In this document: positions 3,198 to 61,113 of the stretch, piece after piece
Layout of the letters: the number at the start of each line of letters is the position of its first letter
Numbering within the stretch: position 1 is the stretch's first letter
Assembly: GCF_000800455.1 (NCBI RefSeq)
Contig: NZ_CP007456.1
Location: forward strand, 1,798,001-1,862,000
Source of the DNA: Bifidobacterium catenulatum PV20-2
Lineage (GTDB): Bacteria > Actinomycetota > Actinomycetes > Actinomycetales > Bifidobacteriaceae
Direction of reading: 5' to 3'
DNA: 64,000 bases
Notes under the pieces: generated by a model
What the model was told of the DNA's origin: nothing
Seen by the model: only the letters and a program-made list of their open reading frames with translations
The model's database searches: none
Translations under genes and position numbers: made by a program

Positions 3198-3208
3198 CCG
3201 ACGTTGAA

Positions 3209-3326
3209 TGCGGCGGCGTGCTACTCTCCCACACCCTCTCGAGTGCAGTACCATCGCCGCGACCAGGCCTTAGCTTCCGGGTTCGGAAAGGGACCGGGCG
3301 TCTCACCTGGGCCATGACCACCGCAA
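3209..3326 (-). rRNA. rrf: 5S ribosomal RNA
   Basis: The minus strand shows the 5S signature CCCGGTCCCTTTCCGAACCC followed by GGAAGCTAAG. The terminal helix forms between TGCGGTGG (3318-3325) and CCGCCGCA (3209-3216), which sets the ends to within a few bases and gives about 118 nt, the normal length. It is the last gene of the minus-strand 16S-23S-5S operon, about 200 bases after 23S. Confidence 0.95.
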
Positions 3327-3529
3327 AACCAAACACAACGGCCAACCACAAGGATCGGCCGGCAAACGGAACCAACCACGATTCCGATCGTGGCGGTCCG
3401 GGAACCGGACAACGGACGCGAACAAAACGCCTTACCAACATCATCATTGTGACCACAAGAAACAGCGTTCCCTGCCATCCAACGAGAAAAACCACCACAG
3501 GACGAGACCCAACCCACAAGGGTTGGAAA

Positions 3530-8569
<5,040 letters not shown>

Positions 8570-52896: not shown

Positions 52897-52902
52897 ATGG
52901 GA

Positions 52903-55900
52903 TCACTGGAATTCAGGCTCTTCCGCAACCTGGTCAGCCTTGGCGACCGCGTCGGGGCGCGCGCCGATGTTGAAGCCAAGATCGTCGGAGGAAGCAGACG
53001 GATCGTCGTCCTCGTCCTTCATGTCGATGGCCACACCTTCCGCGTTGAGCACTTCGACGTTCAGGGACAGGGACTGCATTTCCTTGAGCAGCACCTTGAA
53101 GGATTCCGGAATGCCTGCCGGCGGCAGGTTGTCGCCCTTCACAATGGCGCCGTAGACACGCACGCGGCCGTCGACGTCATCGGACTTGGTGGTCATCATC
53201 TCGTGCAGCGTGTAGGCGGCACCGTAGGCCTCGAGGGCCCACACTTCCATTTCGCCGAAGCGCTGGCCACCGAACTGGGCCTTGCCACCCAACGGCTGCT
53301 GGGTGATCATGGAGTACGGGCCGGTGGAACGTGCGTGGATCTTGTCGTCGACCAGGTGGTGCAGCTTCAGCATGTACATGTAGCCAACGGAAATCGGCTT
53401 CGGGTACGGTTCGCCGGTACGACCGTCGAACAGCACGGCCTTGCCGTCGTCTCCGACCAGCTTGTTGCCGTCGCGATCCGGCAAGGTGCAGGAAAGCAGT
53501 CCCTTAATGGTTTCCGGACGAACGCCGTCGAACACCGGGGTTGCCACCGGGGTGCCCGGCTCGCCCTTTTCGGCGCCCTGCGGAATGTTCTTCTTCCAAG
53601 CGGCTTCGATATCCGGGTCGAGGGAAATGTCCCAGCCGGCATGTGCGATCCAGCCCAAGTGCAGTTCCAGCACCTGGCCGAGGTTCATTCGAGAAGGCAC
53701 GCCCAGCGGGTTCAGCATGATGTCGACCGGAGTACCATCCGCGAGGAACGGCATATCCTCTTCCGGCAGAATGCGGGAGATAACACCCTTGTTGCCATGT
53801 CGGCCGGAGAGCTTGTCGCCCTGGGTGATCTTACGATGCTGCGCAATGTAGACGCGAATCATCTGATTCACGCCGTTCGGCAGCTCGTCGCCGTCTTCTT
53901 CGGCGTCTTCGCGGGTGATCTCCTTGACGTCGATCACCGTACCGGTCTCGCCGTGAGGCACACGCAGCGAGGTGTCACGAACTTCGCGGCTCTTCTCACC
54001 GAAGATGGCGCGCAGCAGACGCTCTTCCGGAGTCAGCTCGGTTTCGCCCTTCGGGGTGACCTTACCCACCAGAATGTCGCCGGCTTCGACTTCGGCGCCG
54101 ATGCGGATAATGCCACGCTCGTCGAGGTTGGCCACCGCGTCTTCGCCGACGTTCGGCAGATCACGGGTGATCTCCTCAGCACCCAGCTTGGTTTCGCGGG
54201 CGTCGATCTCGTATTCCTCGATGTGGATGGAGCTCAGGGTGTCGTCCTGCACGAGACGCTGGGAGATGATCACAGCATCCTCGTAGTTATAGCCGTTCCA
54301 CGGCATGAAGGCGATGAGCAGGTTCTTGCCCAGAGCCATTTCACCCTTCTGGGTTGCCGGGCCGTCGGCCAGCACGGTGCCGGCTTCCACACGTTCGCCG
54401 TCGTGGATCAGCGGCACCTGGTTGTAACAGGTGGTCTGGTTGGAACGGCGGAACTTGGCCAGCTTGTAGGAGCTGGTGGTGCCATCGTCGTTCATTACAC
54501 GGATGATATCGGCGGAAACATAGGTCACCACGCCCGGCTTCTCAGCCAGAATCACATCACCGGAATCAACGGCTGCACGCCATTCGGCACCGGTGCCCAC
54601 CAGCGGGCGCTCGGATTCGATCAGCGGCACGGCCTGGCGCTGCATGTTGGTACCCATCAGTGCTCGGTGGCCCTCATCGTGTTCCAGGAACGGAATCAGG
54701 GATGCGCCGACGGAAACCATCTGGCGCGGGGAAACGTCCATGTAGTCAACGGAGCTGACCGGCACATCGACCGCTTCTTCCTCACCGACTCGGGCAAGGG
54801 CCTGCTTCTTGACGAAGTTGCCGTTCTCGTCGAGCTCCTGGTTGGCCTGTGCGATGACGTGCTCGGCATCGCGGTCTGCGGTCATGTATTCGACCTCGTC
54901 GGTCACATGGCCGTTGACGACCTTACGGTACGGGGTCTCGATGAAGCCGAACGGGTTGATGCGGCCGAAGGTTGCCAGAGAGCCGATAAGACCGATGTTC
55001 GGGCCTTCAGGAGACTCGATCGGGCACATACGGCCGAAGTGGGACGGGTGCACGTCTCGCACTTCCATGGATGCACGGTCGCGGGACAGACCGCCAGGAC
55101 CCAGAGCGGACAGACGACGCTTGTTGGTCACACCTGCCAGCGGGTTGTTCTGATCCATGAACTGCGACAGCTGGGAGGTTCCGAAGAACTCCTTGATGGT
55201 GGCGTTCACAGGGCGGATGTTGATCAGGGACTGCGGGGTGATGGCCTCCGGATCCTGAGTGGTCATACGCTCGCGGACCACGCGCTCCATACGGCTCAGA
55301 CCAGTGCGCAGCTGGTTCTGGATCAGCTCGCCGACCTGACGGATACGACGGTTGCCGAAGTGGTCGATATCGTCGACGTCCACGCGCAGATCCACATCCT
55401 GACCATCACGCTTGCCCGGGAACTTGGTGTCGCCGGCATGCAGAGTGACCAGATACTTGATGGTGGAGATGATGTCTTCGCGAGACAGGCTGCGATCGTT
55501 GATATCCTTCTCCAAGCCAAGCTTGCGGTTGATCTTGTAACGGCCGACGCGGGCCAGATCGTAACGCTTGGTGTTGAAGTAGAAGGAATCCAGCAGATTG
55601 CGGCCAGCTTCCGGCGTCGGGGTGTCGGCCGGGCGGATCTTGCGGTACAGATCGGTCAGAGCCTCGTCCTGGGTCTGCACGGTCTCCTTGGCGAGCGCGT
55701 CCATGACCAGCGGGTAATCCTTGAAGGCGTCGGCGATCTCGTCCTTGGTCATGCCGATGGCCATGAGGAACACGATGGCGGACTGCTTGCGCTTACGATC
55801 CACACGCACGCCGAGCACATCACGCTTGTCGATCTCGAACTCAAGCCATGCGCCACGGCTCGGAATGATCTTCGCGCCGAAGACTTCCTTGTCGGAAGTA

Positions 55901-56463
55901 CGATCCTGGCTACGGTCGAAGTACACGCCCGGAGAACGCACCAGCTGAGACACGATCACTCGCTCGGTACCGCCGATGATGAAGGTGCCGTGCGGGGTCT
56001 GCAGCGGGAAATCGCCCATGAACACGGTCTGGGATTTGATTTCGCCGGTGTCGCCGTTCTCGAACTCAGCGTTCACGTACAGCGGAGCGGAGTAGGTGTA
56101 ATCCTTCTCCTTGCACTCCTGCACGGTGTGGCGCGGTTCCTCGAAATATGGATCGGAGAAGGTCAGGCTCATGGTCTGAGCGAAGTTCTCGATCGGGGAG
56201 ATCTCCTGAAAGACCTCGTCAAGACCAGAGGTGTGGGACACGGTATTGGTGCCGTTCTCCAAATCCTCCTCGACACGCTTCTGCCAGCGCTCGTTGCCGA
56301 TGAGCCAGTCAAAGCTGTCAGTCTGTACACCCAACAGGTAGGGTACATCAATGGGCTCGCGGATGGAGCCGAAATTCACACGGTCCGACGCCTTGTGCAG
56401 ATCAATATCGTGCTGGTCGGCGCGTGCGATGATGGTGGTGGTGTTCGTCGTAGCCTCAGCCAA
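52903..56463 (-). CDS. rpoB: RNA polymerase subunit beta
   Basis: 1186 residues. All conserved beta regions are present, for example [16 protein letters not shown], the rifampicin region [35 protein letters not shown] and [18 protein letters not shown] chose TTG 56463 because AAGGAA lies six bases upstream and the protein then begins at the conserved AEATTN. ATG 56532 would add 23 residues of unrelated composition and lacks a good ribosome binding site. In the rifampicin pocket the residue equivalent to E. coli His526 is Asn (residue 447, codon 55123-55125). It is followed by rpoC in one operon. Confidence 0.96.
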
Positions 56464-56626
56464 TGGACGTTCCTTATCGCTCGCTAAATCGTTTCGATAT
56501 GTTTCCCCGGAAGCGCTCCCATTGGCCACCATATGCCTAGTACGCGGGCGCTTCTTCTTTGTCAGCGTGCCCGCTATATGACACGCATGTACGCAAAGTC
56601 ATGAGAATAACATATCCTGTAGATTT

Positions 56627-58287: not shown

Positions 58288-58953
58288 ATGACGAACGAAG
58301 AGCATACCAATGACGCGCAAGGCGCAAACGCAGCGGAAGCCAAAGTCGAGAAAATGTTCGAATACGGCTACCGCAAATCGAATTACGGCCCGGACGAACT
58401 CGTGACCGATGCGCACGGCAATCCGATTTCCGTAGTCGACGCGATGCTGTCGGCCGAAGACGCGGCAAAAGCCGAAACCTCCACGCCCCACCTGTGCTAC
58501 TACTCCCCCCGAATTCCAGGCAACACCGGTTCGGCAATCCGCCTGTGCGCAGTGACCGGCACGATCCTGCATTTGGTGGAGCCGCTTGGATTCAATCTGC
58601 GCGATACGAAGCTGCGCCGCGCCGGATTGGATTATCACGACATGGCGCACGTGGTATTACACCCGAATTTTGAAAACCTAGTGGAATCCATGCCGAATTC
58701 TCGCATCATCGCGTTCACCGCACATGCCACCAAACTGTATACCGACATCGAATACAAACCGACCGACATTCTGCTGTTCGGCCCGGAGCCGGGCAATATT
58801 CCCGATCCGATGGATATTATGGCCGGGCCGCACGTGACCGAACAGGTGCGATTGCCAATGCGCCCAAGCCTGCGCTCCCTGAACCTCACCAACTGCGCGT
58901 CCATTGCCATCTATGAAGCTTGGCGCCAGCTAGGCTTCGCCGGCGGCCAGTGA
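58288..58953 (+). CDS. trmL: TrmL-like tRNA (cytidine/uridine-2'-O-)-methyltransferase (SPOUT)
   Basis: 221 residues. A SPOUT methyltransferase expected to methylate the ribose of the tRNA wobble base 34. Seen are the N-terminal family motif PRIPGNTGSAIRLCAVTG, the knot region LLFGPEPGNIP (normally GPET/S-rG) and VRLPM-x-PSLRSLNLTNCASIAIYEAWRQ. An extra about 55 residues precede the domain. The ATG at 58288 has no ribosome binding site, but TATTCT seven bases upstream suggests leaderless transcription. It is divergent from mutY. The transcript runs into the hairpin at 59016-59107. Confidence 0.88.
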   Translation: MTNEEHTNDAQGANAAEAKVEKMFEYGYRKSNYGPDELVTDAHGNPISVVDAMLSAEDAAKAETSTPHLCYYSPRIPGNTGSAIRLCAVTGTILHLVEPLGFNLRDTKLRRAGLDYHDMAHVVLHPNFENLVESMPNSRIIAFTAHATKLYTDIEYKPTDILLFGPEPGNIPDPMDIMAGPHVTEQVRLPMRPSLRSLNLTNCASIAIYEAWRQLGFAGGQ

Positions 58954-59015
58954 TTCCTCCCCTGCCTGCCAACTTCTAGGTTTTTCAATAATTTTGCTTT
59001 TGTATAGCAAGTTCC

Positions 59016-59107
59016 GCTGGAGAGGCGGCGGGGTCTATTCCCGACACGCTCCAGGCCGCTCAGGCCAAGTCTTTACGGTCTGAAACAGACCCCGCCGCCT
59101 CTCCAGC
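59016..59107 (+). repeat. Large hairpin A with conserved core, downstream of trmL
   Basis: A perfect 21-bp stem (59016-59036 with 59087-59107) encloses a 50-base core (59037-59086). The core, read on the plus strand, matches the core of hairpin B read on the minus strand at about 41 of 47 positions. It lies 62 bases after the trmL stop in the sense direction. The sequence after it is T-rich (59131-59145) only some 25 bases away, so it is not a simple terminator. Confidence 0.85.
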
Positions 59108-59176
59108 TGCGCTGAGTTCAACTTAAGTAAGTTTTCTTTTCTTTTATGCAAGACGCAACGAGATGTACGAAAGCGA

Positions 59177-59263
59177 GCAGAAGAGCGGGATATTCTGTTC
59201 GAGACCGTAAGCTTGGCCAAACGGCCTTGAGTGTGTCGCGAATAGAATATCCCGCTCTTCTGC
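59177..59263 (-). repeat. Large hairpin B with conserved core, downstream of the DUF711 gene
   Basis: A perfect 20-bp stem (59177-59196 with 59244-59263) encloses a 47-base core (59197-59243). It is an inverted relative of hairpin A: the same core, stem bases diverged but still fully paired. Its core orientation matches the minus-strand DUF711 transcript, whose stop is 100 bases upstream. The rest of the 58954-59362 gap shows nothing else I can name. Confidence 0.85.
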
Positions 59264-59362
59264 GACCTCCCCATTACAGCAGCTTATGCACCCAACGCAA
59301 GCACAGATCGCAAGAATGAATCGCACGCGACAAGCATGCATCGGGAAGAGGGAAGGGAGGGG

Positions 59363-60727
59363 CTAGTTTTTGAAGCTGTGGATTGGGGCAGGGATGCGAC
59401 CGCCTCGAGTCACGAAAGCTTCGCAGCTGGTCTGGTTGACTGGAATGATCGGCGCATATCCCATCAGGCCGCCGAAGTTGGCCATCTCCCCTACGCCTTT
59501 GCCTTCAACCGGAATCACGCGCACAGCCGTGGTCTTCTGGTTGACCATGCCGATCGCGGCCTCATCGGCGATGATGCCGGAAATGGTGGATGCGGTGGTG
59601 TCTCCCGGAATGGCGATCATGTCAAGTCCGACGGAGCACACGCAGGTCATGGCTTCAAGCTTTTCGATCTTCAGGCAGCCATTGGTTGCCGCATCGATCA
59701 TGTTCTTGTCTTCGGAGACAGGGATGAACGCGCCGGACAGTCCGCCGACGTAGGAGGACGCCATGATGCCGCCCTTCTTCACCTGATCGTTGAGCATGGC
59801 GAGCGCCGCGGTGGTGCCCGGTGCACCAACCTGTTCGAGGCCGATCTTCTCAAGCACTTCGCCGACGGAGTCGCCTACGGCCGGGGTCGGTGCGAGGGAA
59901 AGGTCGATGATGCCGAATGGAATGCCGAGGCGACGGGATGCCTCCTGTGCCACCAGCTGGCCGACGCGCGTAATCTTGAACGCAGTGCGCTTGATGGTTT
60001 CGCACAGGAATTCGAAGTCCTTGCCCTTGGCTTCGTCGAGCGCGCGGGAAACCACGCCGGGGCCGGAAACGCCGACGTTGATGACCGCGTCGCCTTCGGT
60101 TACGCCATGGAAGCCACCTGCCATGAACGGGTTGTCGTCGGGGGCATTGCAGAATGCCACGAATTTCACGCATCCGTAGGAATCGTTATCTGCGGTGGCA
60201 TGTGCGATGTCTTTGATGATGTGGCCGAGCAGTTCGACGGAGTTCATGTCGATGCCGGTCTTAGTGGATCCCACGTTGACGGACGAGCAGACAATGTCGG
60301 TTTCGCTCAGCGCCTTCGGCAGGGAGCGGATGAGCAGCTCTTCAGCAGGGGTCATGGACTTGGATACGAGAGCGGAGTAGCCGCCGATCAGGTCGACGCC
60401 GACCTTCTTCGCCGCCTTGTCAAGCGCATGCGCGATTTTCACGAAATCATCCGACGTTTTGCACGAGCTTGCGCCGACCAAGGAAATTGGGGTGACAGTG
60501 ATGCGCTTGTTGACGATCGGAATGCCGTAGTCGCGTTCGATGGCTTTGCCGGTGGATACGAGATCCTTGGCGTACGTGGTGATTTTGTTGTAGATGTTGT
60601 CGCAGACTTCGTCGACGCTGTCGGCCGCGCAGTCCAGCAGGCTGATGCCCATGGTGATGGTGCGTACGTCGAGCTTCTCCTGCTCGATCATCTTGTTGGT
60701 CTCGTGGACCTCCATGATATTCAGCAT
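59363..60727 (-). CDS. PFL family/DUF711 (UPF0210) protein
   Basis: 454 residues, the normal length for the family, cytoplasmic. Typical stretches are seen: [59 protein letters not shown] and [15 protein letters not shown]. The family is related in fold to pyruvate formate-lyase-like barrels, but the reaction is unknown. The gene is almost always paired with a small ACT-domain gene, as here, 39 bases upstream. The ATG at 60727 follows a GAAGGA ribosome binding site. Confidence 0.92.
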
Positions 60728-60766
60728 GATGTGTTCCTTCGCTCCTTACCGATGAACCCTGATGGA

Positions 60767-61039
60767 TCAGACGCGGTGCATCTTGGTGAAGATCTCTTCA
60801 CGCTGGCAGCGGATGCGCACGCCGATCTCTTCGCCGAGCTTGTCGAGATCGTCCACGACCTCGCCGAATTCCTTGTCGGTGTTGGAATAGTCCACAATCA
60901 TCATCATGTTGAAGAAACCGTCGATGATGGTCTGGGAAATGTCAAGCACGTTGACCTGATGTTCGGAAAGGTATGTGCAGACGCGTGCGATAATGCCGAC
61001 AGTATCCTGGCCGACGACGGTGATGATTGCCTTGTTCAT
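60767..61039 (-). CDS. ACT-domain protein (UPF0237)
   Basis: 90 residues forming one ACT domain (NKAIITVVGQDTVGIIARVC; ISQTIIDGFFNMMMIVDYS). ACT domains bind amino acids or similar small ligands and regulate partner enzymes. This one is predicted to sense a ligand for the DUF711 protein encoded 39 bases downstream. ATG 61039 follows AGGGAG with four bases spacing. A terminator hairpin separates it from the upstream GH32 gene, so the ACT-DUF711 pair is its own unit. Confidence 0.92.
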   Translation of the reverse strand: MNKAIITVVGQDTVGIIARVCTYLSEHQVNVLDISQTIIDGFFNMMMIVDYSNTDKEFGEVVDDLDKLGEEIGVRIRCQREEIFTKMHRV

Positions 61040-61113
61040 GGAACTCCCTAAACGTGAGGTGTGAATATCCAGTTACCGTCTCGGCAAATTGCCGGACGTG
61101 TGCTCAAGTATAG

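Follow-up and report, generated by a model that had tools for sequence, protein, structure and literature searches.

The closest described systems are the REP, BIME and REPIN sequences. As excerpts of three papers describe them, these are dispersed intergenic palindromes that lie mostly in gaps between codirectional or convergent genes and occur as inverted doublets (PMC3733652, PMC3116915, PMC6006769). Alternative complementary bases, GT pairs and compensatory changes are reported in the excerpts for their stems, and the element presented here shares all of these traits. A REP is given there as a 20–40 bp palindrome (21–65 nt) with a loop of 2–5 nt (PMC3733652, PMC6006769), and its stem as mostly 6–9 bp in the excerpt of PMC3733652 and 7–20 bp in the search rule excerpted from PMC6006769. 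The Actinobacteridae sampled in PMC6006769 hold, according to its excerpted part, only subclass 1.1 Y1 transposases, a subclass taken to be the IS200 type.

The window, the 64,000-nucleotide stretch of Bifidobacterium catenulatum PV20-2 DNA that was analysed, contains an inverted pair of hairpins belonging to a family that resembles REPINs in layout yet falls outside the REPs on tag, size and RAYT partner. Doublets are inverted in 27 of 28 cases with their 3' sides facing (L241 is arranged the other way), and 93 of the 97 element-bearing gaps are codirectional or convergent. However, the hairpins measure 73–92 nt, with a stem of ~27 bp in an element of about 115 bp overall and a loop of mostly 35–38 nt that includes a crossing contact, a size beyond that given for REPs in the excerpts. 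The REP tag (GTAG/GTGG or CGTC at the hairpin foot) is present in a minority of copies only: GTRG lies 0–2 nt from the foot in 15 of 123 copies on the core strand, defined as the strand of the GACAC...GGTC core, and in 3 on the reverse strand, and CGTC in 2 on the core strand. Y1_Tnp matched only 7 of the 112 genus genomes, namely five of the 69 carriers and two non-carriers; the window's genome had no match, and 5 of 14 control genomes had one in the same search. This scarcity of Y1 transposases among carriers rules out a RAYT partner. REP-like repeats are associated with RAYT transposases that have been domesticated, and a bifidobacterial family with so few Y1 carriers raises the question of its mover. 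In a further difference from REP, BIME and REPIN sequences, the element was seen only in Bifidobacteriaceae among the genomes searched.

Other known classes share individual traits with the element. Like MITEs, it is small, non-coding and present in many copies, and some doublets have inverted ends (GTTCCAGCG). Unlike MITEs, it has a structured, strand-specific loop, and neither a parent transposon (Y1 being the type searched) nor a target duplication was found. Integron attC sites are structured single strands, and in this lies their likeness to the element, which, unlike them, keeps its loop and varies its stem. Intrinsic terminators follow stop codons and have G+C-rich stems, as does the element, and the copies are located where terminators sit. 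That they are ordinary terminators alike by chance is nevertheless hardly credible. Their long loop is conserved family-wide and common to more than 100 copies (132 matches at E<=1e-10 share it), which contradicts chance similarity as a full explanation; both orientations are equally common; and most copies lack a T tract: of 123, just 15 on the core strand and 3 on the reverse strand have TTTT no more than 12 nt from the stem. An earlier, sequence-only reading of the window had set the two hairpins apart from ordinary terminators because of their common loop, a distinction that extends to the whole family. A terminator pattern scan of 58900–59420 found none at either hairpin, both of which its loop limit of 3–8 excludes by design.

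The features of the locus are collected in Table 1. Both hairpins, first noticed in the sequence-only reading, are real: the fold of 59010–59110 (+) has a z score of −8.10 and that of 59165–59270 (−) a z score of −9.62, with none of 200 dinucleotide shuffles as good in either case. Pfam confirmed both neighbouring gene families as previously named. The cores are alike, as had been claimed, although the count is 40 identities over 47/50 nt and not about 41 of 47. The TCT/AGA described beside the core occurs in both window copies but is freely variable elsewhere, and what is conserved is the GAC...GTC loop, 35–38 nt long in 121 of 123 copies. The same two hairpins are present in Bifidobacterium sp. 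N4G05, B. catenulatum subsp. kashiwanohense has a near copy of the trmL–DUF711 locus, and genome G038 is 100% identical to the window across 951 bases.

Table 1 Features of the gap between the SpoU-methylase and DUF711 genes, in window coordinates.
Feature	Position	Strand	Remarks
SpoU-methylase gene (trmL in the sequence-only reading)	58288..58953	+	Pfam PF00588; end 62 nt upstream of copy 1
Element copy 1, long loop type, 92 nt	59016..59107	+ (strand of GACAC...GGTC core)	Perfect 21-bp outer arms
Conserved loop of copy 1, 38 nt	59043..59080	+	GACACGCTC...TTACGGTC
Spacer separating inverted copies 1 and 2	59108..59176	.	
Element copy 2, short loop type, 87 nt	59177..59263	-	Inverted relative to copy 1; perfect 20-bp outer arms
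Conserved loop of copy 2, 35 nt	59203..59237	-	GACACACTC...TTACGGTC
DUF711 gene	59363..60727	-	Pfam PF05167; 3' end 99 nt from copy 2

A covariance model, R1, was built from five copies including both window copies, which it scores at 98.5 bits (copy 1, 59019–59104) and 95.0 bits (copy 2, 59179–59261); copy 1, being a training copy, matches by construction, and copy 2 is a training copy as well. In the window's genome, the R1 search placed six strong copies and a seventh, weaker one. Of 112 Bifidobacterium genomes, 69 have a match (E<=0.01, 40 candidates per genome scored), as do 79 of the 189 Bifidobacteriaceae genomes, from 4 of 16 genera (E<=1e-4); the counts per genome are limited by the number of candidates scored and include weaker matches on the opposite strand. 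With a second covariance model, none of 393 genomes from elsewhere in the class matched in a shallow search scoring 11 candidates per genome. The sequence-only reading had recognised no known class, in agreement with the Rfam scan of the window, where three rRNAs alone exceed the gathering score and no such match covers the element. Across five element-bearing loci at E<=1, Rfam placed four microRNA-precursor models on hairpins, all far below gathering, and, outside the element, a weak match to SgrS. No published description of the element was found among the open-access PMC papers listed. Two typical loops gave no plasmid match at E<=0.01, and eight plasmid rows represent a chance-like match of 28–29 bases in Pseudomonas (E 0.8). 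The loop pattern had no exact match in viral contigs, and a 17-nt pattern scan of genome contigs yielded, among the matches listed, mostly chance ones in unrelated taxa. A phage origin was rejected, the viral contigs and plasmids being without a match and the sole phage match, MT837054.1, looking like a misfiled bifidobacterial chromosome. This entry (L128, 1–9190), labelled 'Bacteriophage sp.' in GenBank, has genes for proteins recognisable by eye as MurJ- and TrxB-like, and the element follows the TrxB-like gene.

The stem retains its pairing while its sequence drifts. An alignment of 132 copies (129 of its rows being distinct), which was fitted to the structure, shows changes on both sides in 26 of 26 stem pairs, and 96.0% of the stem cells are paired compared with 63.8% when shuffled and at most 46.3% in slid controls. 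In an ungapped count over 123 distinct copies, 2673 of the 2829 cells at positions 0–22 show Watson-Crick pairing; all four Watson-Crick types are used in most stem columns. The survey set consists of the best-scoring listed matches with orthologues included, and its numbers therefore do not represent independent samples. Seven hand-picked sets of orthologues (25 comparisons) gave 600 unchanged stem cells, 19 with one-sided and 6 with compensated changes, corresponding by eye to about 9 distinct one-sided and 3 distinct compensated events. The arms are non-random and by eye retain a consensus like GTGGGGCNGGGATAT, with flanks of roughly GTGACCGC before the element and GCTCCGTT after it.

The short-type loop reads, on the reverse strand, GACCGTAgGCTTGGCCGArCGGCCTTGAGyGTGTC and contains a GGCC/GGCC inner hairpin. 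Position 30 lies 3' of the inner hairpin, whose loop contains position 19. The bases at these two positions complement each other in 141 of the 143 survey copies (GC 91, AT 47, CG 3; 2 unparsed) and in 27 of 27 copies of genome G055 (CG 25, GC 2), together 168 of 170 and all that parsed, by way of A-T, G-C and C-G. An exception outside the counted sets is L333, the G019 orthologue at the L132 locus, with A against C. A weaker covariation links positions 4 and 17 (CG 60, TA 4, CA 2 of 66). Because both contacts cross the inner hairpin, we infer that the loop may form a pseudoknot or tertiary pairing. The covariation of stem and loop strongly supports the earlier proposal of selection on a single-stranded structure with compensating stem changes.

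The strand opposite the core of the earlier reading folds better in 112 of 123 copies with RNA parameters (mean −68.0 vs −62.9) and in 115 of 143 with DNA parameters. Mismatches on the core strand are A.C in 48 cells and G.T in 23, with two columns excluded, as expected if the reverse strand tolerates G-U or G-T. The 3' flank is T-richer on the core strand (3.9 vs 1.3 T per 10 nt), which hints at a strand preference for termination differing from the better-folding strand. This excess of A.C over G.T bears on a mutational account of the stem, in which template switching during replication of the palindrome copies one arm onto the other and selection on the stem is unneeded. A wholesale mirrored change of both arms among close species at the L132 locus and an exchange of G-C for C-G between orthologues at sufC-sufS are consistent with such copying. 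However, strand-blind repair predicts no such excess, one-sided changes persist in the close orthologues and in young G055 copies, and the crossing loop contact is left unexplained, which together make this account improbable.

Gene context was derived with our own ORF caller for 97 clusters with genes on both sides. The element-bearing gaps are codirectional in 70 cases, convergent in 23 and divergent in 4, compared with 91, 20 and 22 element-free gaps at the same loci (Fisher p 0.003, a value that overstates the significance because the copies are not independent). The element lies a median of 39 nt past the upstream stop and 94 nt ahead of the next start, and 69 of the 97 clusters hold a single copy. 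Single copies in codirectional gaps are sense in 24 cases and antisense in 26. The sequence-only reading had each core in the sense direction of the gene that it follows, which holds for the window pair, whereas a sense-orientation rule for the family is ruled out by these counts. It had also named dispersed copies with no orientation bias and unpaired arms as evidence against itself; the arms are in fact paired, while the copies are dispersed and lack an orientation bias.

The recurrent sites include the gap between a 260-aa and a 424-aa gene, which we take to be sufC and sufS. The element occurs there in 20 of the 30 loci examined, four times as a doublet; these loci are the best matches to an element-bearing query, so that the fraction is biased upwards and is not a genus-wide rate. 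The loci lacking the element have other gaps, mostly short. In a second sufC-sufS copy (L154 / L276), the loop is by eye split by an inserted hairpin of ~45 nt between its conserved halves, and the model match is 124 nt long; at sufC-sufS in G041 (L256), an intact element is, by eye, immediately preceded by a broken 5' half-copy. The trmL–DUF711 gap was readable in 16 of 30 loci, six with the pair and ten without it. A plain hairpin was seen by eye in place of the pair in G001, G051, G028 and G025, and the long and short loop types are swapped in the G060 pair.

These positions also fit a primarily cis-acting RNA element at mRNA 3' ends or within operons such as sufC-sufS, for which spread would be secondary. 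Its long perfect stem might serve RNase III cleavage, 3'-end protection or termination, and its knotted loop might bind a protein or ligand. Consistent with such a role are the strand that tolerates G-U, the sites after stop codons with divergent gaps avoided, the compensated changes in place between orthologues, the repeated use of the same sufC-sufS intercistronic spot (with the bias noted above) and, by eye, the ordinary terminator-like hairpin that replaces the pair in the trmL–DUF711 gap of some other species. On the other hand, single copies point about equally in both directions although loop and folding are strand-specific, and G055 shows recent amplification. This explanation appears rather doubtful.

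The amplification in G055, a draft rated 74% complete, comprises 27 copies in 763,916 bases, which form a few young subfamilies. One 73-nt hairpin is identical at 5 places, and near-identical ones occur at more. The earlier argument that differing arms speak against a mobile repeat is not supported, since young copies do share their arms and older ones have drifted. Near-identical non-orthologous copies also occur within other genomes (G003 L238/L239, arm identity 96%; G017 L150/L224, 91%; G068 L216/L218, 87%). Between species, L216 and L224 are near-identical at non-orthologous sites, and the similarity stops near the element borders. Arm identity averages 0.482 within genomes and 0.454 between them, a difference as large in 7 of 500 permutations (one locus counted twice). 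In the G003 doublets the local alignment spans both hairpins, of which the left one is close while the spacer and the right arms are much less alike. Inverted target duplication, by which arms would be made anew at each insertion, was ruled out by the shared arms of the young G055 copies and by the family arm consensus, and no clean empty site with a target duplication was found at the loci compared.

Judged by eye, the site at the L132 locus carries complete elements in several genomes, among them G019 and G020, where the arms are quite different; in G051, G069 and G001 it has a stem whose loop is decayed, and in G045, G059 and others a plain hairpin. The arms shared with plain hairpins suggest that the core was inserted into the loop of pre-existing terminators; loop loss fits as well, because the loops there also look decayed stepwise by eye.

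Further repeats were noted in these genomes. Seven G055 contigs begin 165–385 bases from a hairpin copy, as if the assembly broke at repeats. L373–L392 of G055 contain other intergenic repeats, for example TCATTTCGAGCGGAGGCGTAGCCGGAGTCGAGAAATCTC, and a similar palindrome is found in L175 (G041). In G030:C20 (L344, 6805–9958), three copies lie within 3.2 kb after a 1185-aa gene; two of these, whose arms are similar, are separated by 261 bp. A tandem duplication of 261 bp that seemed to be present there is an artefact of comparing overlapping stretches.

The analysis shows a palindromic element that is dispersed and has a covarying structure. The reading we favour, and hold to be somewhat more probable than its negation, is that this non-coding element spreads across Bifidobacteriaceae chromosomes through a putative machinery acting in trans and has a 3'-end role after stop codons. 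The reverse-strand hairpin, as single-stranded DNA (or RNA), would be bound through its knotted loop by this machinery, which would copy it to new sites. If the machinery needs only pairing in the stem, stem sequences are free to drift. Insertions after stop codons would be tolerated or favoured, and the stem could then act as an mRNA 3'-end or intercistronic hairpin, that is, as a barrier, a partial terminator or an RNase III-type substrate; at L132 it would, judged by eye, have outlived decayed loops. The inverted doublet may move as one REPIN-like unit, with single copies dispersing too; it may also not be the unit, because most clusters hold a single copy and the G003 doublets share mainly the left hairpin. 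Transposition alone would not need the compensated changes found in place between orthologues (3 distinct events vs about 9 one-sided), and these tell against a model limited to it. A more specific form is put forward tentatively, as one possibility: a REPIN-like system, evolved separately in Bifidobacteriaceae and co-opted to form mRNA 3'-end hairpins, in which a putative non-Y1 machinery (single-stranded DNA or RNA-templated) would take hold of a self-spreading hairpin by its conserved pseudoknotted loop, always on the same strand. The combination of a free stem and a fixed loop makes the element a ready bait for a binding partner. In many Bifidobacterium species the element also places long, perfectly paired hairpins within operons such as suf, which bears on gene expression and on genotyping.

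Two other features of the window were observed. A complete rRNA operon (16S, 23S, 5S) occupies 3208–8568 on the minus strand. Very long open frames at 52897–56487 (+) and 59336–61051 (+) run antisense to a 1209-aa gene, presumably rpoB-like, and to the DUF711 gene, and are probably by-products of codon bias.
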